Both the position numbers and the translations under genes were made by a program. The notes under the pieces are model-generated. The model saw only the letters and a program-made list of their open reading frames with translations. It was not told where the DNA came from and did no database searches. DNA of 64,000 bases from the NCBI RefSeq assembly GCF_900188275.1, contig NZ_FZNY01000003.1:310001-374000 (forward strand), read 5' to 3'. Of the stretch, positions 4,522 to 52,262 are shown in pieces. Within the stretch, counting starts at the first letter, position 1, and every line of letters begins with the position of its first letter. The stretch is from Dokdonia pacifica. Its GTDB lineage: Bacteria; Bacteroidota; Bacteroidia; Flavobacteriales; Flavobacteriaceae.

Positions 4522-5229
4522 ATGGAAACTGAAAACAAAAAGATTTTACTCGTAGAAGACGATCCAAACTTTGGAACAGTCCTAAAGGATTACCTATCTA
4601 TGAATGATTACGATGTCACTCATGCCAAAAATGGTATGGAAGGCTTCGAAAAATTTAAAAAAGACGATTTTGACCTTTGTATACTAGATGTAATGATGCC
4701 CTATAAAGATGGGTTTACATTAGCAAAAGAAATACGTGAGAAAAACGCCGATGTACCTATTATTTTCTTAACTGCAAAAGCACTAAAAGAAGATGTCCTT
4801 AAAGGATATAAAGTAGGAGCAGACGATTATCTTAATAAGCCTTTTGATAGTGAAGTACTTCTTATGAAGATCAAAGCCATCATACAACGTAAGAGTGTAG
4901 ACTCTATAGCAGATAGTAAACAATTTGAATTTACGATTGGAAACTTCCATTTAAATTCAAAGCTTCGTTTCTTAACCTTTAGAGAAGAAGAGCCTATCAA
5001 GCTTTCACCAAAAGAAAACGAACTTTTACGTATGCTTGCATTACACGAAAATGACTTAATGCCTCGTGAACTTGCACTTACAAAAATATGGAGAGACGAT
5101 AATTACTTTACATCACGTAGTATGGATGTATATATCGCAAAACTTCGTAAGTACCTAAAGAAAGACGATACCGTAGAGATACTAAATATCCACGGAGAAG
5201 GATTTAGATTGGTTGTAAAAGCCCTCTAA
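4522..5229 (+). CDS. OmpR-family response regulator, RprY-like
   Basis: Cytoplasmic transcription factor and evident partner of the upstream kinase. The receiver domain has the acidic pair EDD at residues 12-14, phospho-acceptor Asp56 in CILDVMMP, and KPF near residue 105. The C-terminal winged-helix (OmpR/PhoB) domain shows the usual LSPKENELLRML and YIAKLRKYLKKD segments. The length of 235 residues is typical. It ends 29 bases before a strong bidirectional terminator shared with miaA. Target genes cannot be told from this window. Confidence 0.93.
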   Translation: METENKKILLVEDDPNFGTVLKDYLSMNDYDVTHAKNGMEGFEKFKKDDFDLCILDVMMPYKDGFTLAKEIREKNADVPIIFLTAKALKEDVLKGYKVGADDYLNKPFDSEVLLMKIKAIIQRKSVDSIADSKQFEFTIGNFHLNSKLRFLTFREEEPIKLSPKENELLRMLALHENDLMPRELALTKIWRDDNYFTSRSMDVYIAKLRKYLKKDDTVEILNIHGEGFRLVVKAL

Positions 5230-8578: not shown

Positions 8579-9235
8579 CTATTGATAATTTCTTGCTCCA
8601 AAAATAGCACTTCCCACTCTTACCATTGTACTTCCGTTTTCTATGGCAAGTTGGTAGTCGCCACTCATGCCCATTGATAAAGTATATAGGTTTTTGCTTT
8701 CGCGAAAGCGTACAAATAAACTTTCTAATACTTTAAACTCTGCTGCTACTTGCGTCATATCATCAGTAAAAGATGCCATTCCCATAAGCCCTATAACATT
8801 TACATTAGGATAATTATCCAATTGATTTCCTTCTAAAAAAGCAATTGCTTCGGGAGTAGGCATACCATATTTGGTATCTTCTTGAGCAATTTTTACTTGG
8901 AGTAATACATCTACCGTACGATCTACTAATGCCGCTTGTTTATTAATTTCTTTAAAAAGCTTGAGTCTATCAGCACTATGTATTAGACTCACATATGGAA
9001 TCATAAACTTTACCTTGTTGGTCTGAACATGACCTATCATATGCCATTGGATGTCTTTAGGGAGTTGTTCCCATTTTTCTGACATCTCCTGAATTTTATT
9101 TTCACCAAAAATACGTTGTCCACCATCATACGCTTCTTGAATAGCAGTAATAGGTTTGGTTTTAGATACAGCCACTAGTGTAACTGTGTCTGGGATGTTA
9201 TGTTGAAGTTGTTTAATATTTTCTTTAATACTCAT
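8579..9235 (-). CDS. YggS/PLPBP-family pyridoxal phosphate homeostasis protein
   Basis: A single-domain PLP-binding protein (218 residues) of the YggS family, which helps keep vitamin B6 and amino-acid pools balanced and has no firmly known reaction. The PLP lysine is Lys25 in LVAVSKTKP; further family motifs are GENKIQEMSEKW, WHMIGHVQTNK and LSMGMSGDY. The start at ATG 9235 is chosen because it gives the standard N-terminus; 13 bases separate it from the DUF1015 gene. The palindrome repeat at 8696-8709 is read here as RFRES, the rarest of its three frames. Confidence 0.93.
   Translation of the reverse strand: MSIKENIKQLQHNIPDTVTLVAVSKTKPITAIQEAYDGGQRIFGENKIQEMSEKWEQLPKDIQWHMIGHVQTNKVKFMIPYVSLIHSADRLKLFKEINKQAALVDRTVDVLLQVKIAQEDTKYGMPTPEAIAFLEGNQLDNYPNVNVIGLMGMASFTDDMTQVAAEFKVLESLFVRFRESKNLYTLSMGMSGDYQLAIENGSTMVRVGSAIFGARNYQ
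8696..8709. repeat. 14-bp palindrome copy 2 (inside the yggS-like gene)
   Basis: Exact GCTTTCGCGAAAGC, followed by a further G. Read as RFRES on the gene strand. Confidence 0.95.
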
Positions 9236-9248
9236 ATACTTTCTATCA

Positions 9249-10487
9249 TTAAAACTCATAAATAGTAATGCCACTACGTAATTTAGGTTCTATATAGGTG
9301 CTTTTTGGAGGCATAGTGTATCCGTCGTCTGCAATTTGCTTTAACTCTTCCATAGTAAGCGGAAGCATTCCAAATCCTACAGCGTACTCTCCTTTATCTA
9401 CAGCGCTTTTTACATAAATCATATCCTTCTTTCCTCCAGCATAAGTGATGCGAGCATCATTGCGAAGATCAGATATACCTAATATGGGCTCTAGAATTGT
9501 TTTGTATAAAATCTGAGGGTCAAGTGCTTCAAGGGTGTTTTTGAAATTATAATTGCTTTTTCGTAAATACAGTGAGTAAAATTCTCCATCTAAATACATG
9601 GAGAAATGATGCTTTTTACTTGGAGTGTATGCAGCAACACCTCTATTTTCAATCCTAAACTCAGTATCTAAGGCAATAAGAAATTCTTCTTTGGATAACC
9701 CATTAAGGTCTTTTATAAGTCTATTAAATTCATGAATACGTACGTGTGATTCTGGAATAAAGAAGCTCATAAAATAATTATAGGTAGCTTCTTTATGATA
9801 ATCAGGATCATTTTGCTGATGATCTTTGGCTAGTAAATAAGAAGACGAAGAACGATGATGCCCATCTGCAATGTAGAGCTGTGGCATTTGTTTAAATGCT
9901 TCTTGAATGGTAGCGATACTCTTAGGGTTACTTAATGGCCAAACATAGTGTGTGTCTCTATATGTTGTGGTAAATTCATATTCGGCACGTTCTTGTGTTG
10001 TTTCCTGAATAATGGATGCCACATCAGCATTGTCTGGATAGGTGAGTAGTACTGCTTCTGCATTAAATCCTACAGTATCTAGATATTCTTTAAATAATTC
10101 TTCTCTGTCTTCTAGGGTATCTTCGTGTTTTTTGATAAGGTTGTTTTCATAATCAAATACACTAGCACCTCCTATAAGACCACAAAATTCTTGTCCTTTA
10201 CGGTCAATGATTTTATAGATGTAAAATGATGGTTGTTCTTCTTTAAGAAAAACACCCTCTTCTTTAAATTCTTGATAGCGATTTCGTACTAGTTTAAACG
10301 CTTTTTTACCAGTGATCTCCTTATGGTATTTATAACCAGGATTTACAATATGTAAGAATGAATACGGATTTCTATCCATTCTAAACTTGCGTCCTTTTTT
10401 AGAATAGGTTTCATAAGATCTTGATGCGACAAGACCTACTTTATCTCTAGTAGGACGTACAGCTCGAAATGGAATAATAGTAGGCAA
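9249..10487 (-). CDS. DUF1015 family protein
   Basis: A 412-residue cytoplasmic protein (no signal peptide or helices) of the DUF1015 family, sometimes annotated as SerC-linked or HTH-containing; its activity is not established. Family hallmarks visible are the N-terminal IPFRAVRPTRDKV, NPYSFLHIVNP, and the central YIADGHHRSSSSY stretch, where the DGHHR motif is likely functional. It sits 13 bases upstream of the YggS-like gene and 3 bases downstream of the M23 lipoprotein gene, suggesting one transcript. No serine biosynthesis gene is adjacent. Confidence 0.88.
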   Translation of the reverse strand: MPTIIPFRAVRPTRDKVGLVASRSYETYSKKGRKFRMDRNPYSFLHIVNPGYKYHKEITGKKAFKLVRNRYQEFKEEGVFLKEEQPSFYIYKIIDRKGQEFCGLIGGASVFDYENNLIKKHEDTLEDREELFKEYLDTVGFNAEAVLLTYPDNADVASIIQETTQERAEYEFTTTYRDTHYVWPLSNPKSIATIQEAFKQMPQLYIADGHHRSSSSYLLAKDHQQNDPDYHKEATYNYFMSFFIPESHVRIHEFNRLIKDLNGLSKEEFLIALDTEFRIENRGVAAYTPSKKHHFSMYLDGEFYSLYLRKSNYNFKNTLEALDPQILYKTILEPILGISDLRNDARITYAGGKKDMIYVKSAVDKGEYAVGFGMLPLTMEELKQIADDGYTMPPKSTYIEPKLRSGITIYEF

Positions 10488-43008: not shown

Positions 43009-43614
43009 TTATCTGTTTTTAATATAAAGCCTTATTCTATAGGTTGGTGTTATCGTAACAATGCCACTTTTTTTATACATATTTGATACCACAATATACA
43101 GTTCAATTTCTGTATGTTCATTTGGATACCATTTATTATTTTTTCTTAGTCCTCCGGGTTGATCGGCTAGTGTTGTATCAGATAAGTTACCTCTTGACTT
43201 TGGAGTTCCATAAAGTGTCGTAAGTTCTTTTTCTAAATCTTTATATTTTTGGATGAGTGCTTTCTGAAATTCTTCCGATTGTTTTTCACCTTCTTCTAAT
43301 TCTTTTGAATTCTTAGGATCCCACTCATAAAGAACTTTAGACATTAAAGAATCTTTTTCTTTAAAATGTAAATAAGTAACTAAACCTGGAAGTATGTTTC
43401 CTTTTCTTTTAAATGTAATAGGTTGTGCATTACCACTCAAAGAAATATATTTTGTTGTATTTGGCATTTGCACACTACCTAGTTGTTCTTCCATTTGAAT
43501 ATATGCATCCAGTGAAGTATTCTGAATATCAAATTGATATTCCTGCCCATATATTATAGCTCCAATAAATAAAAACCCAAGGATCTGTATATTTTTTAAT
43601 AATGTATGATGCAT
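43009..43614 (-). CDS. Hypothetical exported protein
   Basis: Not recognised. A 201-residue product with an N-terminal hydrophobic leader (LLKNIQILGFLFIGAIIYGQ) and a mature region that contains a charged helical stretch (KNSKELEEGEKQSEEFQKALIQKYKDLEKELTTLYGTP) and a C-terminal strand-rich part (TEIELYIVVSNMYKKSGIVTITPTYRIRLYI). It is 15 bases downstream of the exported gene at 43630-44739, so they likely form a pair. Confidence 0.68.
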   Translation of the reverse strand: MHHTLLKNIQILGFLFIGAIIYGQEYQFDIQNTSLDAYIQMEEQLGSVQMPNTTKYISLSGNAQPITFKRKGNILPGLVTYLHFKEKDSLMSKVLYEWDPKNSKELEEGEKQSEEFQKALIQKYKDLEKELTTLYGTPKSRGNLSDTTLADQPGGLRKNNKWYPNEHTEIELYIVVSNMYKKSGIVTITPTYRIRLYIKNR

Positions 43615-43629
43615 TGTATTTTTAATTTC

Positions 43630-44739
43630 TTAGTAATAAATAATAGCTAACTCCGTAGACTTATCTAACACTTTTTTGCCATTGCGTAGAATATACGATG
43701 CAATATACGTAGGATTGTGATAGGTATCATAGGTGTATTCAAAGAGAAGGTCTCTGTGAATAGTGATCTCTTTCTGGAAACTATAATCATCTCGTGATAC
43801 ATATATATTCTTTTTAGCATCATTTTCATAAGATACGTTATACACGATATTATTTTTCTGAGAATCTGCTTTTGTATACGATGTTATCCTGTCTTTACTG
43901 TCATATGACACTGAAAATGTTGTTTCGATGTACATGCCTTCTACTGTTTCGTTTTCTTGTAACTTCCATTTTTTAGGATGTTTTTTAAGTTGTTTATATG
44001 TCAAAAAACAGCGATCTGAAACTGTAGTCGCATTTTTAAAACGCCCTTGTTGATCATATGTGTAGGTGCTTTTATAAGTATCTATAAGATCACTTTCTAT
44101 AGTAAACTCATGCTGTAGTAATGTATGTAATTGTCCCAACTTTGTATACGTTGCTTCTCCGTATCCATAAATACTAAATTCAGAAAAATAAATTACAGAT
44201 TCGTCTACAAACCCTTCGTCATCCATTTCTAGTGCGCCTTCAGATTTGTAATGTGTACGAGTAGATAATTTGTCATTCTTATAAGTGTATACAATACTAT
44301 CCATCATCCCTCCAGCAATGTCATAAGCCATATAATTGGTGAGTTTTCCTTTTTTGTAGATATAGGTATAGAAATCTTCTTCCTTGATAATTGTGTCATT
44401 TTTTATAATAGGAAGTAGTTCGCTATTTAGATTTTCTACAGTAATATCATCAAAGACATTATCTGTGGTATATTTTGTGATTTTTCTATCGGTATTTATT
44501 AGGTAATAATAATTCTCTGTATACGTCTGGTCACTATCGGGCGATGTATGTTGTGTAAATGTGCGATTTACTTCGCGTACTGAACCTTCTAGAAATAGAG
44601 GGTTTGTCACTTTGTCTTCTTCTAATAGGGTATAAAAATCATTTTGAGGTGTAGGGAAATCTGGTAGTGTTCTGCTTTGAGCATTTATTGATACTATGCA
44701 GATAAGTAAAAGTAAAGAAGTGTATACCTGTTTATACAT
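43630..44739 (-). CDS. Hypothetical exported protein with YD-like strand repeats
   Basis: A 369-residue protein; ATG 44739 gives a clean signal peptide (MYKQVYTSLLLLICIVSINAQ), unlike the longer upstream alternative. The mature part is rich in repeated Tyr-containing strands separated by turns (TENYYYLINTDRKITKYTTD, YTYDQQGRFKNATTV, VSYDSKDRITSYTKA, YTYDTYHNPTYIASYI), loosely resembling RHS/YD repeats and typical of Bacteroidota surface or periplasmic proteins. No catalytic motif is seen. Confidence 0.68.
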   Translation of the reverse strand: MYKQVYTSLLLLICIVSINAQSRTLPDFPTPQNDFYTLLEEDKVTNPLFLEGSVREVNRTFTQHTSPDSDQTYTENYYYLINTDRKITKYTTDNVFDDITVENLNSELLPIIKNDTIIKEEDFYTYIYKKGKLTNYMAYDIAGGMMDSIVYTYKNDKLSTRTHYKSEGALEMDDEGFVDESVIYFSEFSIYGYGEATYTKLGQLHTLLQHEFTIESDLIDTYKSTYTYDQQGRFKNATTVSDRCFLTYKQLKKHPKKWKLQENETVEGMYIETTFSVSYDSKDRITSYTKADSQKNNIVYNVSYENDAKKNIYVSRDDYSFQKEITIHRDLLFEYTYDTYHNPTYIASYILRNGKKVLDKSTELAIIYY

Positions 44740-44998
44740 ATAGTGGTTACGTGAGTTAGTGTAGCAATATAACGGTAAAATGGTATAATTATGATACTGG
44801 ATATAGGGTATAAAAAAAGCGCCCACCCTTCCCCTAGGCAAGCACTTATTTTTCTGATCGTAAAAAATTAATTAACTAACTCTTAATCTTTAGAGCTGAA
44901 AGATGCGTAAATGATAGATGACATCATTACGGGTTTCCGTAAAAAATAGTAGAAATAAATTTGTATACAGATATCGGGTATATTTTAAGCAAGAATAT

Positions 44999-46147
44999 TT
45001 ATTCTAACCTCTTAAAAAAGAAAGGGCTGTAATCCGGTATGAGTTGAGGATGTGCAATAGCAATAATATCCTTTAAGATAATATCGGGTCGTAAAGGGCC
45101 TAATTCAAAATATAATAACCCTCCATTTTCTCCTATTTTATTTGTGTAGGTATAAACGTTATTGTTGTTATATGCATCAAAGAGCGCATAATTTTTACTA
45201 TTTGCATGCATCTGTGCTTTGTTTTTAAAACTACCTGCACCTATCCATAAAGGGGCATGTTGTGCTTTTACCAAAACACTTTCGAAATTTAATTGTAGAC
45301 TCCCTGTATTTGGTGTGTCTTTCCATAAATAATCAGTGTTGGCGTCTTCTAAGTATTTCGCTACAAAACTCTTCCCACCAGGGATGTTCCAAGTATCTTT
45401 AAAAGGCGAACCAGAAAATACAATGGGCTTTTCTATAACGTGAGATGCAATTTGTTTTGCTGCTAAATAATCTCTCTCTACTTGTTTGAAAATTTCGTGA
45501 GCCTCTGTTTCTTTATCAAAAAAAGTAGCAATAAACTTTATCCATTCTGCACGTCCTAATGGATGTTGCTCTGTCCATGCGCCATCTAAAATAACAGGAA
45601 TCCCAAATTGAGCAATTTTGTCTAAGGTCTCATTATTGCCATTTACCGAAAAACCAATGACTAGTTCCGGAGCTAACTCTAAAAGGAGTTCCATATTAAT
45701 ATCAATGCTACTGTTGAGGTTTTTAATTTCTCCCTTATCGATACGAGCTCTTGTTTTTTCTGAAGAAATATAGTCAGGATTAGGAAATCCTACTAATAAA
45801 TCATCAACACCCAAATACTCTAAAGAAGGAATATTTGTTGTAGACATGGCGACCATTTTTTTAATAGGAAGTTCTACAATAACAGTATTTTCATCTTGTT
45901 GATCATAAGTGCTTATATCTTGTGTTAAGATATAGGTAAACGTTTCTTCACTATCTGGCCAAGCAGAAGTAACTTTTATTTCTTTATAGTTTGTATAGTG
46001 TGTGATAGAAAACCCTTTTGCATAATCTATTTGTTCAATTCTTTTCTCTTGAATTGATACTTGTGAAGGTGTATCGCTTTTTTTTTGAATCTCTTTACAA
46101 GAAGTACTTATGAATACTAAAGAAAGACATATAAAGAGAAATCGCAT
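44999..46147 (-). CDS. ABC transporter substrate-binding lipoprotein, BtuF-like
   Basis: A 382-residue predicted lipoprotein (lipobox ending at Cys17, ISTSC) with a helical-backbone metal-chelate-binding fold: SLEYLGVDDLLVGFPNPDYI starts the first lobe, LLLELAPELVIGFSV is typical of BtuF/FhuD-type proteins, and PVILDGAWTEQHPLGRAEWIKFIATFF follows. Given the cob genes and btuB nearby, it probably binds corrinoids. No permease or ATPase gene is adjacent, so BtuCD must be elsewhere. No riboswitch-like sequence was found in the 163 bases upstream. Confidence 0.85.
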   Translation of the reverse strand: MRFLFICLSLVFISTSCKEIQKKSDTPSQVSIQEKRIEQIDYAKGFSITHYTNYKEIKVTSAWPDSEETFTYILTQDISTYDQQDENTVIVELPIKKMVAMSTTNIPSLEYLGVDDLLVGFPNPDYISSEKTRARIDKGEIKNLNSSIDINMELLLELAPELVIGFSVNGNNETLDKIAQFGIPVILDGAWTEQHPLGRAEWIKFIATFFDKETEAHEIFKQVERDYLAAKQIASHVIEKPIVFSGSPFKDTWNIPGGKSFVAKYLEDANTDYLWKDTPNTGSLQLNFESVLVKAQHAPLWIGAGSFKNKAQMHANSKNYALFDAYNNNNVYTYTNKIGENGGLLYFELGPLRPDIILKDIIAIAHPQLIPDYSPFFFKRLE

Positions 46148-46310
46148 AGATGAAAATTTAAGAAACCAAAATTCGTTATTTTTTTTGTATCCCCATCTAT
46201 AGAAGGGTATTTTTGATGCAGAAGTGATTTAGCTTTTTTGATTCAAGTGAAAAATAGGAATTTTTATAGCCAATAGGAAAAGTCTAAATTACTTCTTTAA
46301 AATAAAGTCA

Positions 46311-46958
46311 ATGAAATTTTTATGTTCGTGGAGTGGTGGTAAGGATAGTTGTTATGCTTTGTATAAAGCGCAACAATTAGGATATACGCCTACAGTATTA
46401 CTTAATGTGATGAATGAACATGGAGATAGATCCCGCTCTCATGGAATCCCTAAAGAAATTCTAATGGCACAAGCTGAAGCTATTGGAATACCTATTCATT
46501 TTTTTAATAGTACGTGGGCAGATTATGAAGTAAACTATATCAAACATTTAAAAGATCTTGTAAAAACGTATAGCGTATCCCATGCTGTTTTTGGAGATAT
46601 TGATATAGCCTCGCATCGTGCTTGGGAAGAGAAAGTATCTCATGCTGCTTCTATAGAAGCAATTTTGCCTTTATGGCAAGGAGATCGGAAAGCGTTGGTT
46701 CTTGCAATGATTAAAGATGGAGTAGAAGCTATGATTGTTTCCTGTAATCAAACTTTAGGACCTGACTTTTTAGGAAGAACTATTGATAGTAAACTTCTGG
46801 AAGAACTAGAAGCCATAGGGGTAGATGCTTGTGGTGAAAATGGAGAGTATCATACACTAGTCGTAAATGCTCCATTTTTTAAAAACCGATTGAATATTCA
46901 AATGGTTGGAAAAGCCACTTCGAGTAATTATAATTTTGCAGAGTTACAATTGGAATAA
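46311..46958 (+). CDS. Dph6-like PP-loop ATPase (diphthine-ammonia ligase family)
   Basis: A 215-residue ATP-pyrophosphatase with the PP-loop SGGKDS at residues 8-13 and family segments SHAVFGDIDIASHRAWEEKV, LPLWQGDRKALV, SCNQTLGPDFLGR and DACGENGEYHTLV. The eukaryotic and archaeal relatives amidate diphthine on EF2, a modification bacteria lack, so the substrate here must differ. It is placed between the BtuF-like gene and the cobC-cobS-cobT-cobU group, suggesting a link to corrinoid metabolism, possibly amide formation. That is inference from position. Confidence 0.82.
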   Translation: MKFLCSWSGGKDSCYALYKAQQLGYTPTVLLNVMNEHGDRSRSHGIPKEILMAQAEAIGIPIHFFNSTWADYEVNYIKHLKDLVKTYSVSHAVFGDIDIASHRAWEEKVSHAASIEAILPLWQGDRKALVLAMIKDGVEAMIVSCNQTLGPDFLGRTIDSKLLEELEAIGVDACGENGEYHTLVVNAPFFKNRLNIQMVGKATSSNYNFAELQLE

Positions 46959-47001: not shown

Positions 47002-47075
47002 GTCACTCTGAACTTGTTTCAGAGTCTCACGAATTCGTATCTCCTTTTGAGATGCTGAAACAAGTTTAGCATGAC
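47002..47075. repeat. Flavobacterial inverted-repeat element
   Basis: Two 28-base arms in opposite orientation (first with AACTTGTTTCAG, second with CTGAAACAAGTT), matching at most positions, separated by 18 bases. This type of intergenic element is, from memory, common in Flavobacteriia. It lies between the Dph6-like gene and cobC. Confidence 0.75.
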
Positions 47076-47112: not shown

Positions 47113-47679
47113 TTAAGAAATAGGAATCTTAGTAATCACTTTGATATCGTTGTCTTCTTTTTTAAGATGAATCACATCTCCGTATTGAATCTTAATACGG
47201 AATGATTTTTCTAAAGGAATTTTCAGAAGTTTAGCAAGCAGTGACCGTATAGGACCTGCATGTGTTACAATAATGACAGGTTGTGCAAGTTCTGATTGGA
47301 TTAATTCTTCAAAAAAAGAATACACGCGTGTGGTCAAATCAATATAGGACTCTCCATTTGGAACGCGCACGTTTACAAAATCATTCATCCAAGGTTCTAT
47401 ATCTTTCTGCGGAATATCATTCCAAGGCATGAGTTCCCAATCTCCAAAATTTAATTCTAAGAGCCTATTGTCATAGGTAATAGGGCTTTTATACGCTTTC
47501 GCGAAAGCGGAACAACGTTGTAAAGGACTGGAAATAATGTGATAATCTCCTTTTGGAATGGTATCTAAAATCACTTGAAATTCTTCTGGGTAGCTACTTA
47601 TAAGTTCCAAATCACTTTGTCCATAACAAATGCCTTTGTCTATATGGGGAGTGGTATGACGTACTATATATATGTCCAT
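47113..47679 (-). CDS. cobC: Alpha-ribazole phosphatase, histidine phosphatase family
   Basis: A 188-residue histidine phosphatase, likely removing the 5'-phosphate of alpha-ribazole phosphate or cobalamin phosphate in lower-loop assembly. The RHG-type motif is IVRHTTPH near the N-terminus, with SPLQRCSAFAKAY and THAGPIRSLL later. ATG 47679 is the start that gives the family N-terminus; it overlaps cobS by 16 bases. The palindrome repeat (47492-47509) reads AFAKA right after the conserved LQRC. The assignment to CobC rests mainly on neighbours. Confidence 0.85.
   Translation of the reverse strand: MDIYIVRHTTPHIDKGICYGQSDLELISSYPEEFQVILDTIPKGDYHIISSPLQRCSAFAKAYKSPITYDNRLLELNFGDWELMPWNDIPQKDIEPWMNDFVNVRVPNGESYIDLTTRVYSFFEELIQSELAQPVIIVTHAGPIRSLLAKLLKIPLEKSFRIKIQYGDVIHLKKEDNDIKVITKIPIS
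47492..47509. repeat. Extended palindrome copy 12 (inside cobC)
   Basis: TACGCTTTCGCGAAAGCG with core 47495-47508; last two bases of the 20-bp form are changed. Read as AFAKA. Confidence 0.95.
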
Positions 47680-48425
47680 AAGGCGATGAGGCTTATATAA
47701 AAAATGACTTCTGATAGTTGTTGCACAGCGCCTGCGCAATCACCCGTTTGACCACCGAGCCATTTAGTGAATTTAGCACCTAGATACATTTTAGAAAGAT
47801 ACATAGGAATGATAACCAAGAGTACGAAAGGAGATTTAAAAAATAACAGAGGAATCATCCCTATAAGACCACTCACAATTATAATATCGATACCAATATT
47901 TTTTGCAGCAGGCTTCGCTTTGCTATCTTCTGTCTCTCTTACATATGGATGTGTATAGAGTAGGGTAGTAGCAATAAATCGACTTAGACTATGACCAGAA
48001 ATAATAGTCAATGGGATATAGTGTACAGGAACTTCACGTAATGCTGAAAATTTGATCGCTAATAAGAGTCCAATTCCAATAACGCCATAGGTTCCTAATG
48101 TAGAGTCTTTCATAATAAGAAGGATCTTCTCTTTGGTCCACCCACCGCCTAAACCATCACATACATCTGCAAAACCATCTTCGTGAAATGCGCCTGTGGT
48201 ATAGATAGAACTTGCCATACTGAGTAACAATGCAATTTCTAATGGCAAAATAAAGGAAGCACCATAAAATACTAAGGCTGCAATACTACCTACCAAGATG
48301 CCTACTAAAGAAAAATACCGCGAACTCTTCTTAAGATAGGTAGGATTATGGTCTACCCACTTAGGACACGGAATGCGTGTAAAGAACATTAAGGCTGTAA
48401 AAAAAATATGAATCTCTTTCTTCAT
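47664..48425 (-). CDS. cobS: Adenosylcobinamide-GDP ribazoletransferase
   Basis: Inner-membrane cobalamin synthase, joining adenosylcobinamide-GDP with alpha-ribazole (or its phosphate). The 253 residues carry the N-terminal FFTALMFFTRIPCP motif, AFHEDGFADVCDGLGGGWTKEKILLIMKDSTLGTYGVIG (the family's acidic signature) and several hydrophobic helices. It ends 16 bases inside cobC and begins right after the cobT stop, so cobT, cobS and cobC are translationally coupled. Confidence 0.95.
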   Translation of the reverse strand: MKKEIHIFFTALMFFTRIPCPKWVDHNPTYLKKSSRYFSLVGILVGSIAALVFYGASFILPLEIALLLSMASSIYTTGAFHEDGFADVCDGLGGGWTKEKILLIMKDSTLGTYGVIGIGLLLAIKFSALREVPVHYIPLTIISGHSLSRFIATTLLYTHPYVRETEDSKAKPAAKNIGIDIIIVSGLIGMIPLLFFKSPFVLLVIIPMYLSKMYLGAKFTKWLGGQTGDCAGAVQQLSEVIFYISLIALWTYI

Positions 48426-49460
48426 TTATGGGGTTGTTTCTCCGCTTATACCAGCACTTTCAAAGCTAGCCATTTCTTGTAAGAAATTAACAGATGCTCT
48501 CAATATAGGTATTGCTAATGCCGCTCCTGTTCCTTCTCCTAATCGAAGTCCTAGTGATAGTATAGGTTGCACCTTTAGAAAATCTAACATTTTGATATGC
48601 CCTTGCTCATTTGAGGTATGCGCAAATAAGCAGTAATCTAATACATTTGGTTGCATTGCATGTGCAGCCAATAAAGCAGCAGTCACAATAAATCCGTCTA
48701 TCACAATAGTCATTTTTAATTCGGCAGCTTTTAGAATAGCAGCAGTAATCATGGCGATTTCAAATCCTCCAAAAGTCGCAAGCGCTTCGGTAGGATTTTG
48801 AATGTTGTATGTCTGATAAACTTCTGATAGAATACGTTGTTTTTTAGAAATCCCATTTTGGTCGAGACCAGTTCCAGACCCTACACATGTTGCAATAGGA
48901 ATTTGTGTGAAATAGCTCATTAATAAGGAAGCCGATGAGGTATTTCCAATGCCCATTTCTCCAAATCCTATTGTATTTACCCCTTCTTTATGCAAATCAG
49001 TTACAATGGTTTCAGCATGCTGGAAAGCGGTTTTGAGTTCTTCTAGCGTCATTGCTGGAACATGCTGATAGTTTTTGGTGCCCATAGCTACTTTAGCATG
49101 TGTGATAGCTATGTCTTTATCAAATGTATGATTTACACCCGCATCTACTACTTTGAGATGGATATCATTTGTTGTGCTCAACACATTAATAGCAGCGCCT
49201 CCTTGTACAAAATTATACACCATTTGCGAGGTCACTTCTTGCGGAAATGGATTTACTTCTCCTTTGGAAGCAATACCGTGATCTCCTGCAAAAACAACGA
49301 TGGTAGGCCTTGTAATTACGGGAGTTTCTGTTTGTTGTATACAGCCGATTTGGAAAGCAATTTTTTCCAACATTCCTAACGCCCCAACGGGTTTTGTTTT
49401 TAAATCTATTTTATGTTGAAGTCTTGCTTCTAATTCGCTGTTTTTTGTGGTTGTAATCAT
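48426..49460 (-). CDS. cobT: Nicotinate-nucleotide-dimethylbenzimidazole phosphoribosyltransferase
   Basis: Activates the lower-ligand base to its alpha-riboside phosphate. The 344-residue protein shows the typical IDLKTKPVGALGMLEKIA start, FAGDHGIASKGEVNPFPQEVTSQMVYNFVQGGAAINVL, GFGEMGIGNTSSASLL, and the active-site region LGLRLGEGTGAALAIPIL with the catalytic Glu. It lies 15 bases downstream of cobU and abuts cobS. This gene plus cobU, cobS and cobC makes the nucleotide-loop set complete. Confidence 0.96.
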   Translation of the reverse strand: MITTTKNSELEARLQHKIDLKTKPVGALGMLEKIAFQIGCIQQTETPVITRPTIVVFAGDHGIASKGEVNPFPQEVTSQMVYNFVQGGAAINVLSTTNDIHLKVVDAGVNHTFDKDIAITHAKVAMGTKNYQHVPAMTLEELKTAFQHAETIVTDLHKEGVNTIGFGEMGIGNTSSASLLMSYFTQIPIATCVGSGTGLDQNGISKKQRILSEVYQTYNIQNPTEALATFGGFEIAMITAAILKAAELKMTIVIDGFIVTAALLAAHAMQPNVLDYCLFAHTSNEQGHIKMLDFLKVQPILSLGLRLGEGTGAALAIPILRASVNFLQEMASFESAGISGETTP

Positions 49461-49475: not shown

Positions 49476-49979
49476 TTATTTAAGAGTCATAGGAATTCCC
49501 GAGACCATAAATGTAGCTTTATCTGCCCGTTTTGCAATGTGCTGATTGACCCAACCTTGCAGTTCTGTAAATTTCCTACCCACCTCTGTTTGTGCATGCA
49601 CACCCATTCCTATTTCGTTAGAAATGATAATAATAGTAGCATCTATGTTTGCTAGTTTGTCGAATTCCGCTTTCGCGAAAGCTAAACATTGCTGGATATC
49701 GTTTTTTGTATCAACAAAGTAATTGGTAAGCCATAAGGTCACACAATCTATCACCACGACATCATTTGTAGAAACGACAGTAGAAATATTTTTTTCTTCC
49801 TCTATAGACGTCCAACGTTCATCTCTGTCGGCTTTATGTCTATCAATACGTTCGGTATGATCACCACCCCAATTGCGGGAGGTTGCGATGTATATAGGAG
49901 TATCAGATAAAGAAGTCGCTAATGCCTGTGCATAACTACTTTTTCCTGAACGTTCACCACCAGTAATGTAATAGATCAT
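49476..49979 (-). CDS. cobU: Adenosylcobinamide kinase / guanylyltransferase
   Basis: A 167-residue bifunctional enzyme that phosphorylates adenosylcobinamide and attaches GMP. The P-loop is GGERSGKSS (residues 7-15), followed by YIATSRNWGGDHTERIDRHKADRDERWTSIEE with the guanylylated-His region, and VVIDCVTLWLTN. The palindrome repeat at 49669-49682 codes AFAKA in CLAFAKAEFDKL. It heads the cobU-cobT-cobS-cobC group, divergent from btuB; the riboswitch lies on the other strand and should not control it. Confidence 0.95.
   Translation of the reverse strand: MIYYITGGERSGKSSYAQALATSLSDTPIYIATSRNWGGDHTERIDRHKADRDERWTSIEEEKNISTVVSTNDVVVIDCVTLWLTNYFVDTKNDIQQCLAFAKAEFDKLANIDATIIIISNEIGMGVHAQTEVGRKFTELQGWVNQHIAKRADKATFMVSGIPMTLK
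49669..49682. repeat. 14-bp palindrome copy 13 (inside cobU)
   Basis: Exact GCTTTCGCGAAAGC. Read as AFAKA. Confidence 0.95.
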
Positions 49980-50069: not shown

Positions 50070-50077
50070 TATCTTCG
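50070..50077 (+). promoter_or_regulatory. Promoter-like element of the riboswitch-btuB unit (TATCTTCG)
   Basis: Seven of eight bases match TAnnTTTG. An ATTG lies 16 bases upstream as a possible -33 element. Transcription would start near 50082, just ahead of the riboswitch. Confidence 0.5.
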
Positions 50078-50090
50078 CGCCGAATTTTGG

Positions 50091-50305
50091 TTTGATTTTG
50101 TTGTTTGCAAACAGAATCAATTAAAAGGGAATCTGGTGCAATAGTAACTATTAAATCCAGAACTGTTCCCGCAACTGTAATTCTTTGCTAATGAAAATTA
50201 GCACCGTTTAGGATGTTATTAACTACAAAACCACTGGCACTTGCTGGGAAGGTATAATAACATAAGATAAGTCAGGAGACCTGCCATATTCAGCAAAGTA
50301 AGTCA
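50091..50305 (+). ncRNA. Cobalamin (AdoCbl-type) riboswitch
   Basis: The leader shows the conserved parts of a cobalamin riboswitch in order: AAAAGGGAATCTGGTGC, CCAGAACTGTTCCCGCAACTG, AATTAGCACCG, AAACCACTGGCACT...GGGAAGGT, and the B12 box AAGTCAGGAGACCTGCCA (50269-50286). A hairpin precedes it at 50091-50121. It lies upstream of btuB and should turn btuB off when cobalamin is plentiful. End positions are approximate. Confidence 0.93.
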
Positions 50306-50369: not shown

Positions 50370-52262
50370 ATGAACAAAAAAACAAATGCATTTGTAGCAT
50401 TAGGTATGTTTTTTTCTGTGTGTACTATGGCACAAGAAACGCAACAACCTACTGTAGAAACATTGGACGAAGTGGTATTAACAGATTCGCGTTTTGCATT
50501 AAAACGTGAAAACTCTGGAAAAACAGTCATTACAATTTCTAAAGAAGAAATTGAAAAAAACCAAGGCCGTTCTGTCGCTGAATTAATCAATACAAAATCT
50601 GGTATTGAAGTAAATGGTAGTAGAAGTAACGCAGGACAAAACTTAGGTGTTTTTGTACGTGGAGGTAGAAACCGTCAAGTATTGGTGATTATAGATGGGG
50701 TTCAGGTTTCTGATCCATCTCAAATTAATGGCGAATATGATTTACGCCTATTATCTTTAGGAAACATCGAAAAGATTGAAGTAATCAAAGGTGCTGCAAG
50801 TACACTGTATGGAAGTGGAGCTGCCGCTGCTGTAATTAATATTACAACGAAGGATGCGAGTGATAAAGCAGTACATGTTGTCATCAATTCTAGTGTGGGA
50901 ACCAATCAATCTCAAGATGACCAGGATTACAGATTGTCAGATTTTAATAATAGCGTGAATGTAAACGGAACGTTAGATAAGTTCACTTATAAAGCAGGGT
51001 TTAATCAGCAATTTACCGACGGACTTTCAGCAGCACTAGTAGAAGAAGGAGAAGCAGAAAGAGATGCATTTTCTAAAAAGAGTTTTGATCTAAATCTTGG
51101 ATACCAATTTACAGATGCTTTCTCTATAAATATTTTTGGGAATGTAACTGATATTAATTCAGATTTTGACGGTGGTGCCTTTTTTGACAGCCCAGGAAAT
51201 GAATTTAATAGTGATCAGTACAGAGTAGGGGTTTCTTCTACATATAAGTACAATAAAGGAAGCGTACATTTAAACGCATCGTATAGCACATTTGATAGAG
51301 CGTTTATCTCTGATTTTCCATTCTTTGCAGAAGGTGAGAATTTGATTTTAGATGTATATAATAAATATAAAATCAACAATTCTTTCTACACGATTGTAGG
51401 TTTGAACGTCATTGATAATCAAGCTACTTTTGAAGGAAATGCACAAGATGAAAACCCAGATTTTAATATCATAGACCCGTATGCCAATGTGGTGTATGTA
51501 TCAGATTTTGGTTTAAATATCAATGCTGGTGCTCGTCTGAATAATCATAGTGAGTATGGTTCTAATTTTACATACAATATCAATCCTTCATATACATACA
51601 AGTTTGGAGAAGGAAGCTATGTAAAGCCATTTGGATCGTATAGTACATCATTTATAGCGCCTTCTTTAAATCAATTATTTGGAAACTTCGGACCTAATCC
51701 TGAATTAGACCCAGAAGAAAACTTAACCATAGAAGGAGGAGTTGAAGTAAAACTAGGAAAGAATTTTAGAGCTAGTGCTTTATATTTTGACAGAGAAGAA
51801 ACAGATGTGATTCAATTTGACTTTGAAGCTGGGTATTTTAATAGTGAAGAAGTGGTCAATACGAGCGGTATTGAAGTAGAAGTAAATGCTACACCCGTAA
51901 AGAACCTATCATTAACTGCTAACTATACGTATATAGATAATGAAAATAATGCGGTGTTGATTCCAGAAAGCAAAGCCAACTTTACCGTAGGATATGATTT
52001 CTCTCCAAGAACATTTGCTTCTGTAGCCTATCAATATACAGATGATAGATTGGCTAATGACTTTAGAGAGTTTCCAGCAACAGAAGTTACACTAGAAAGC
52101 TTCAGTCTTGTAAACCTTGCTTTTGGACATACTTTAAAAAATGAAAAATGGCGATTCTTATTAAGTGTAGATAATCTATTAAATGAAGATTATCAAGACG
52201 TTTTCGGATTTACATCAAGAGGTGCCAACGTAAAACTAGGAGTAACACTAAATCTTTTATAA
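50370..52262 (+). CDS. btuB: TonB-dependent vitamin B12 receptor
   Basis: A 630-residue outer-membrane receptor. A short signal peptide (AFVALGMFFSVCTMAQ) is followed by a TonB-box-like ETLDEVVLTDSR, a plug domain (SVAELINTKSGIEVNGSRSNAGQNLGVFVRGGRNRQVLVIIDGVQVSDPS, IEVIKGAASTLYGSGAAAAVINI), and a 22-stranded-type barrel ending in a terminal strand (GANVKLGVTLNLL). Substrate is assigned from the cobalamin riboswitch upstream and the neighbouring salvage genes. A strong terminator follows. Confidence 0.94.
   Translation: MNKKTNAFVALGMFFSVCTMAQETQQPTVETLDEVVLTDSRFALKRENSGKTVITISKEEIEKNQGRSVAELINTKSGIEVNGSRSNAGQNLGVFVRGGRNRQVLVIIDGVQVSDPSQINGEYDLRLLSLGNIEKIEVIKGAASTLYGSGAAAAVINITTKDASDKAVHVVINSSVGTNQSQDDQDYRLSDFNNSVNVNGTLDKFTYKAGFNQQFTDGLSAALVEEGEAERDAFSKKSFDLNLGYQFTDAFSINIFGNVTDINSDFDGGAFFDSPGNEFNSDQYRVGVSSTYKYNKGSVHLNASYSTFDRAFISDFPFFAEGENLILDVYNKYKINNSFYTIVGLNVIDNQATFEGNAQDENPDFNIIDPYANVVYVSDFGLNINAGARLNNHSEYGSNFTYNINPSYTYKFGEGSYVKPFGSYSTSFIAPSLNQLFGNFGPNPELDPEENLTIEGGVEVKLGKNFRASALYFDREETDVIQFDFEAGYFNSEEVVNTSGIEVEVNATPVKNLSLTANYTYIDNENNAVLIPESKANFTVGYDFSPRTFASVAYQYTDDRLANDFREFPATEVTLESFSLVNLAFGHTLKNEKWRFLLSVDNLLNEDYQDVFGFTSRGANVKLGVTLNLL

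Follow-up and report, generated by a model that had tools for sequence, protein, structure and literature searches.

The B12 locus of Dokdonia pacifica holds a gene, here called DUF71a, for a PP-loop protein that in Bacteroidota is probably not a maker of cobyric acid for CbiB. A B12 role of some kind is very likely for this protein. As the best explanation overall, we tentatively propose that it is a PP-loop enzyme of corrinoid uptake and salvage which forms an amide on an imported corrinoid. The gene was analysed within a window of 64,000 nucleotides (contig NZ_FZNY01000003.1, positions 310,001 to 374,000), and the coordinates given below are those of the window unless a locus is named.

The DUF71a gene and its B12 locus

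DUF71a is an exact open reading frame with an ATG start on the forward strand (46311-46958), encoding a protein of 215 residues that we assign, from the reading frame, its profile match and an AlphaFold2 model, to the PP-loop (N-type ATP pyrophosphatase) proteins. The sole Pfam family detected is PF01902 (Diphthami_syn_2), matched at 1.4e-45 with 155.9 bits against a cut-off of 23.2; with this E-value and a nearly full-length alignment, covering residues 1-212 of 215 and profile positions 1-214 of 219, the match is not due to chance. The SGGKDS PP-loop motif, already pointed out in a first-pass annotation of the window, is present at residues 8-13 (46332-46349, forward strand). The PP-loop pattern occurs in 96 of 111 sequences, and 13 of the 15 that miss it have a variant. 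A second motif, CGENGEYH, located by alignment with Dph6, spans residues 174-181 (46830-46853, forward strand); its C174 and H181 are invariant in the 16 rows of an alignment (A1) built from a whole-protein search.

The same annotation had placed the gene between a BtuF-like gene and cobC, which reading frames and profile matches (PF01497, TIGR03162) bear out. The BtuF-like periplasmic binding protein is encoded on the reverse strand (44999-46147; PF01497, 9.7e-24) and is a neighbour kept in five relatives (L033-L037). It is divergent from DUF71a, with 163 bp between the two genes (46148-46310). On the other side lie, all on the reverse strand, genes for the alpha-ribazole phosphatase CobC (convergent with DUF71a; 47113-47739, likely ATG start at 47679; TIGR03162, 164.1 bits against 162.9), the adenosylcobinamide-GDP ribazoletransferase CobS (47664-48425; PF02654, 1.7e-51; NF001277 above cut-off), CobT (48426-49460; PF02277, 6.7e-121; TIGR03160 above cut-off) and the cobinamide kinase/guanylyltransferase CobU (49476-49979; PF02283, 2.2e-51; NF004469 just under its cut-off, 151.2 against 161). 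A cobalamin riboswitch on the forward strand (50071-50302; RF00174, 93.7 bits, E 5.3e-22), the sole one detected in the window, lies 5' of a gene for a BtuB-like TonB-dependent receptor (50370-52262, forward strand; PF07715, and TIGR01779 as best match at 1.1e-63, under the equivalog cut-off).

DUF71a is oriented opposite to both of its neighbours and therefore forms an operon with neither in this genome. A riboswitch immediately upstream of DUF71a was rejected, since searches of the 163-bp gap gave no match at the gathering threshold and none to a cobalamin riboswitch even when E was allowed to reach 10. Genes for BtuC and BtuD are absent after the window btuF (43009-46147), and a tblastn search of the 64-kb window with the BtuC of L033 was negative, unlike the situation in the five family relatives (L033-L037), in all of which btuC-btuD follow btuF. 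An imperfect palindrome (47008-47069), in which CTGAACTTGTTTCAGAGTCTCA is paired with its reverse complement at 3 mismatches, sits in the gap where DUF71a and cobC converge; a search allowing up to 3 mismatches found no further copy in the window.

Relation to Dph6 and to the DUF71-B12 subgroup

The AlphaFold2 model of DUF71a (mean pLDDT 97.1) has as its nearest solved folds the archaeal Dph6-group proteins PH1257 and PF0828. Foldseek aligned the model with eight Dph6-group chains at E 5.9e-17 to 1.3e-13; VIA gave Z of 25.1 to 27.6 for chains of this group (27.6 and 26.4 over 202-204 residues for PH1257, 2d13, and PF0828, 3rk1/3rjz/3rk0) and 12.8 for argininosuccinate synthase, the next family. 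Fold, PP-loop and the C-terminal motif region are shared with Dph6, an enzyme of eukaryotes and archaea, but the Dph6 equivalog TIGR03679 scores 108.1 bits against a cut-off of 197.3, and H181 aligns with E188 of PF0828, the residue put forward as the catalytic Glu of Dph6. The initial description as Dph6-like is therefore apt for the fold and not for family membership, and a true Dph6 was rejected on the low TIGR03679 score and the change of the catalytic-Glu motif to His. In a tree with two closely related partial Dph6 chains, the two stand apart on a long branch (2.2 changes per column, support 100), and this branch, made of two partial chains only, joins the bacterial DUF71 proteins at a node with support 21. 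The bacterial gene is commonly annotated as diphthine-ammonia ligase, a label that is misleading for bacteria. Diphthamide and its pathway (Dph2, Dph5) are absent from bacteria, as stated in the main text of PMC3541065.

In that main text, de Crecy-Lagard et al. (2012) divided DUF71 into Dph6 and DUF71-B12. Members of the latter adjoin B12 transport genes in 75 of 102 cases and cbiB in 18 of 102, and have ENGEF/YH in place of EGGE/DxE, the replacement of the Dph6 Glu by His being taken by the authors as a sign of a changed reaction. In bacteria, they report, the subgroup is strictly anti-correlated with CbiZ, and genomes with CbiB carry, with few exceptions, either CbiZ or DUF71-B12, the reverse not being claimed there. 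A pseudo-B12 amidohydrolase, or another route of pseudo-B12 salvage, was proposed, and further experiments were asked for (PMC3541065). The paper mentions bacteria that carry more than one DUF71 homologue, and the words tandem, paralog and riboswitch are absent from its main text. The open-licence literature yielded citations of the DUF71-B12 prediction and no experimental test of it; a subscription paper could exist.

The window protein belongs to the DUF71-B12 subgroup. It has PF01902, the ENGE[FY]H signature (ENGEYH, residues 176-181) and a chromosomal position among B12 transport and salvage genes, with BtuF and cob neighbours, and PF01955 (CbiZ) gave no match at E 0.001 in either the protein or its genome. 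It differs from the subgroup, as presented in the 2012 main text, in that no CbiB was found in its genome or in those B12-linked relatives among the Bacteroidota that were tested, and in that Bacteroidota B12 loci often hold two paralogous clades, a and b. Membership stands despite the absent CbiB, because CbiB is a correlate and not a defining feature. The ENGE[FY]H motif was rejected as a B12 marker, since it is also present in loci without B12 genes. The B12 link of DUF71a is supported, but has been in print since 2012 on much the same reasoning (main text of PMC3541065). CbiZ (PMC3541065) and CbiR, a TIM-barrel phosphodiesterase of pfam01261 (PMC7733943), have a known or proposed action on cobamides taken up by the cell, a property that the window protein may share; it differs from both in showing PF01902 alone.

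DUF71 in the family of the window genome

Among 120 genomes of the family, one per genus, with types assigned by identity to the window protein, a-type DUF71 (67-100% identity) occurs in six and b-type (30-39%) in 49; any DUF71 match was obtained in 51 of the 120, with a fragment only in G106. CobS is present in all six a-type genomes versus nine of the other 114, an association for which Fisher values overstate independence because the six genomes represent one clade. CbiB was detected in six of the 120, including two of the six a-type genomes. Two genomes with CbiB (G013, G063) have no DUF71 match; the CbiZ search of this survey covered the window genome only, hence not these two.

The block cobU-cobT-cobS-cobC / DUF71a / btuF-btuC-btuD is kept in all five same-family relatives examined (L033-L037), and in every one of them DUF71a runs on the opposite strand. 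In one of them (L036, genome G054) the cobS of the B12 locus is fragmented, with stops (8843-9505), and a second, open CobS lies elsewhere in the genome, about 23 kb from CbiB. For the b-type, 17 of about 49 neighbourhoods were examined, the best-scoring plus some others. In G041 the gene lies close to btuF, and in G053 and G099 close to both btuF and btuB; no CobS, CbiB or CobT was found in these three genomes. TonB-dependent receptor and lipoprotein pairs near DUF71b or btuF (L042 9134-11992, L043 5402-8341, L053 14899-17850) resemble, by eye, the way BtuB and BtuG are arranged in gut Bacteroides. In five family genomes, one of them that of the window, the b-type paralogue follows an AroQ-like gene and is without B12 neighbours (L002 1492-2223; L038-L041, L047); the AroQ label was given by eye to the copy of the window genome and by phmmer to that copy elsewhere.

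Gene neighbourhoods across phyla

A GTDB scan extended the comparison. The best 80 of 586 confirmed loci were kept and 79 counted, L063 being dropped before counting as the same region as L062. CGENGE[FY]H was one of the two scan patterns, so that conservation of the motif in L053-L132 is partly by construction. B12 context was called by phmmer with Bacteroidota reference proteins within four listed genes, and divergent B12 genes will therefore have been missed in loci called as lacking it. Within this best 80 of 586, B12 genes lie at most four genes from DUF71 in 15 of 20 Bacteroidota loci and in 20 of 59 non-Bacteroidota loci (including L120, of unstated phylum), with none detected in the remaining 39. 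Six of these 20 calls depend on a BtuC match alone (L080, L100, L102, L109, L118, L132) and one on BtuB alone (L119), and all seven single-transporter matches may be other importers; in L109, CobC and CbiB are also present, somewhat further away.

The gene orders in Bacteroidota vary. Three Flavobacterium loci (L065, L067, L070) have the same-strand run cobU-DUF71a-cobT-cobS-cobC. Roseivirga thermotolerans (L071) has btuF-btuC-btuD-btuB-DUF71a-DUF71b behind a riboswitch (4603-4801), the genes being spaced at -20 to 17 bp, in Reichenbachiella (L072) a riboswitch leads btuB-DUF71a-cobU-T-S-C-DUF71b, and in an Urechidicola MAG (L068) one leads btuB-DUF71b-DUF71a-btuF. Cobalamin riboswitches were detected in five of seven and seven of seven B12-context loci in the two sets searched, versus none of eight loci without B12 context; the two misses (L060, L066) are short contigs or start within the gene run. 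The first-pass annotation had named co-occurrence with B12 genes and with these riboswitches as a check on its idea, which a lack of B12 genes beside the gene in relatives would have refuted; both are observed, the former for example in five of five family loci, though not in every lineage, as Chitinophagaceae show.

The two paralogues separate in a further tree, made by a quick method: 26 a-type Bacteroidota rows fall on one side of a branch with support 100, and 29 b-type rows, four of them from other phyla, on one side of another with support 100. Counting the window, there are 21 a-type B12 loci, and 11 of them contain both types within one stretch (L033, L035, L036, L053, L054, L060, L066, L068, L071, L072, L073), and they are directly adjacent in L066, L068 and L071.

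Chitinophagaceae members of the same clade lie outside B12 loci in five of five cases (L058, L059, L061, L062, L064), and no CbiB, CbiZ, CobS or CobT was found in these five genomes. An RNase H-like ORF (by eye) directly 5' of DUF71a in at least four of the five (L058, L059, L061, L062) is a second constant context there. Copies in Pseudomonadota and Bacillota are likewise often without B12 neighbours, with detection biased to Bacteroidota genes. A function unrelated to B12, with the position in B12 loci incidental in some lineages, would account for these many copies, for the b-type genes beside the AroQ-like gene and for the lack of riboswitches in the eight loci without B12 context. We consider it improbable in view of the several different btu/cob gene orders across several phyla and the 75 of 102 cases that adjoin B12 transport genes in the 2012 main text (PMC3541065); moreover, the negative calls rest on Bacteroidota references.

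CbiB, CbiZ, CobS and CobT in genomes with DUF71

The published mechanism was examined in 50 genomes drawn from the 79 loci, namely all 35 with B12 context (15 Bacteroidota and 20 others) together with 15 of the 44 in which none was called. MAGs of unstated completeness are numerous in this set, so absences in them weigh less. CbiZ was found in none of the 35 B12-linked genomes. CbiB was found in none of the 15 Bacteroidota and in 13 of the 20 others, one of these by a weak match; the search is sensitive to Bacteroidota CbiB, which it detected in the six family genomes and in a Bacteroides control. CobS is present in 12 of the 15 Bacteroidota and 17 of the 20 others, and neither CobS nor CobT was found in three of the 15 (L066, L068, L071), among which Roseivirga thermotolerans (L071) is the sole isolate. 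The 15 genomes without B12 context include eight with CbiB and three with CbiZ (Psychrobacillus, Sporosarcina, Jeotgalibacillus).

These results agree with the published anti-correlation with CbiZ and not with a CbiB-dependent role in Bacteroidota. According to the published model, DUF71-B12 replaces CbiZ and cuts adenosylpseudocobalamin, and the resulting adenosylcobyric acid is turned into cobalamin by CbiB and CobU/T/S, or else DUF71-B12 serves another form of pseudo-B12 salvage. The strict anti-correlation (main text of PMC3541065), the lack of CbiZ in the 35 genomes and the CbiB of 13 of the 20 non-Bacteroidota are as this model would have it, and a hydrolytic reaction could draw on the conserved Cys and His close to the motif. 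We nevertheless judge it unlikely: CbiB was not found in the window genome, in four of six a-type family genomes or in any of the 15 B12-linked Bacteroidota, three of which have no CobS or CobT either, and a plain hydrolase would presumably have no need of a retained PP-loop. With no CbiB found, cobyric acid would lead nowhere in these Bacteroidota, nor in G041, G053 and G099, although a CbiB substitute of unrecognised kind would save the model. Remodelling via cobyric acid and CbiB is unlikely in the window genome, where neither CbiB nor CbiZ was found. In the import-only genomes, lower-ligand remodelling by known enzymes would be impossible because no CobS or CobT was found. At least some DUF71-B12 members, being kept in such genomes, probably act directly on imported corrinoids.

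An enzyme that substitutes for CbiB, using ATP to couple cobyric acid with aminopropanol or aminopropanol phosphate in a CbiB-less salvage route, would suit the amide-ligase-type fold, the lack of CbiB in the Bacteroidota tested and the position between cobU and cobT in Flavobacterium. However, DUF71 co-occurs with CbiB in 13 of the 20 non-Bacteroidota B12-linked genomes and is present without CobS and CobT, where the known route could not complete cobinamide, and we consider this explanation improbable.

Handling of intact imported cobalamin free of any amide chemistry, such as decyanation, release from the importer or an aid to adenosylation, would be consistent with the runs that contain btu genes alone and in which CobS and CobT were not found (L066, L068 and L071, the latter two riboswitch-led). 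We think such a role quite unlikely. A B12-binding domain is encoded in 118 of the 120 family genomes and a PduO-type adenosyltransferase (PF01923) in 114, the window genome included, versus DUF71 in 51, and DUF71 is therefore accessory and not required for B12 use. Replacement of the adenosyltransferase was rejected, as PF01923 is already present in those 114 genomes.

Proposed function of DUF71a

We hypothesize that DUF71a, putatively cytoplasmic, would adenylate a carboxylate of an imported corrinoid with ATP, and that an amide would then be formed at that carboxylate in the manner of Dph6, on another substrate. ATP use, the carboxylate target and the amide step are all deduced, and ATP-dependent amide formation by DUF71a is accordingly a tentative assignment, somewhat less likely than not; the retained PP-loop and the predicted fold would agree with it. 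The most economical substrate would be a corrinoid that has lost a side-chain amide, because neither CbiB nor CobS would be needed for its repair. What would fit the import-only genomes is that damaged corrinoids are re-amidated after import; taken alone, this repair version is rather doubtful. We know of no described pathway with a corrinoid repair step, and the matches listed in a search for literature on deamidated cobalamins contained nothing useful.

DUF71a and DUF71b are adjacent in btu runs without CbiB, CbiZ, CobS and CobT (L066, L068, L071), two of the three riboswitch-led (L068, L071). On account of this adjacency we speculate that the Bacteroidota pair may, with ATP, repair or tailor corrinoids that are imported and otherwise intact, for instance by putting back side-chain amides, a reading still more doubtful than repair as such. 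The pair might form a heteromer or catalyse two steps, and would act apart from cobyric-acid salvage and lower-ligand assembly. Several observations count against DUF71a as an amide-forming enzyme of corrinoid salvage: the same subfamily occurs outside B12 loci in Chitinophagaceae and elsewhere, 39 of the 59 non-Bacteroidota loci gave no B12 neighbour with the reference proteins used, the window gene has no riboswitch of its own, its btuF is without btuC and btuD, and the Dph6 Glu is replaced by His.

The CbiB-less and import-only settings described here add to the 2012 prediction; they narrow the possibilities and name test organisms. Genomes without a recognisable CbiB, some of them also without recognisable lower-ligand assembly, weaken the leading mechanism for those lineages and are simpler organisms in which to test the remaining ideas. 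If imported B12 is indeed repaired or tailored by these proteins, this would be a new step in the use of B12 by dependent, non-producing bacteria that scavenge it.
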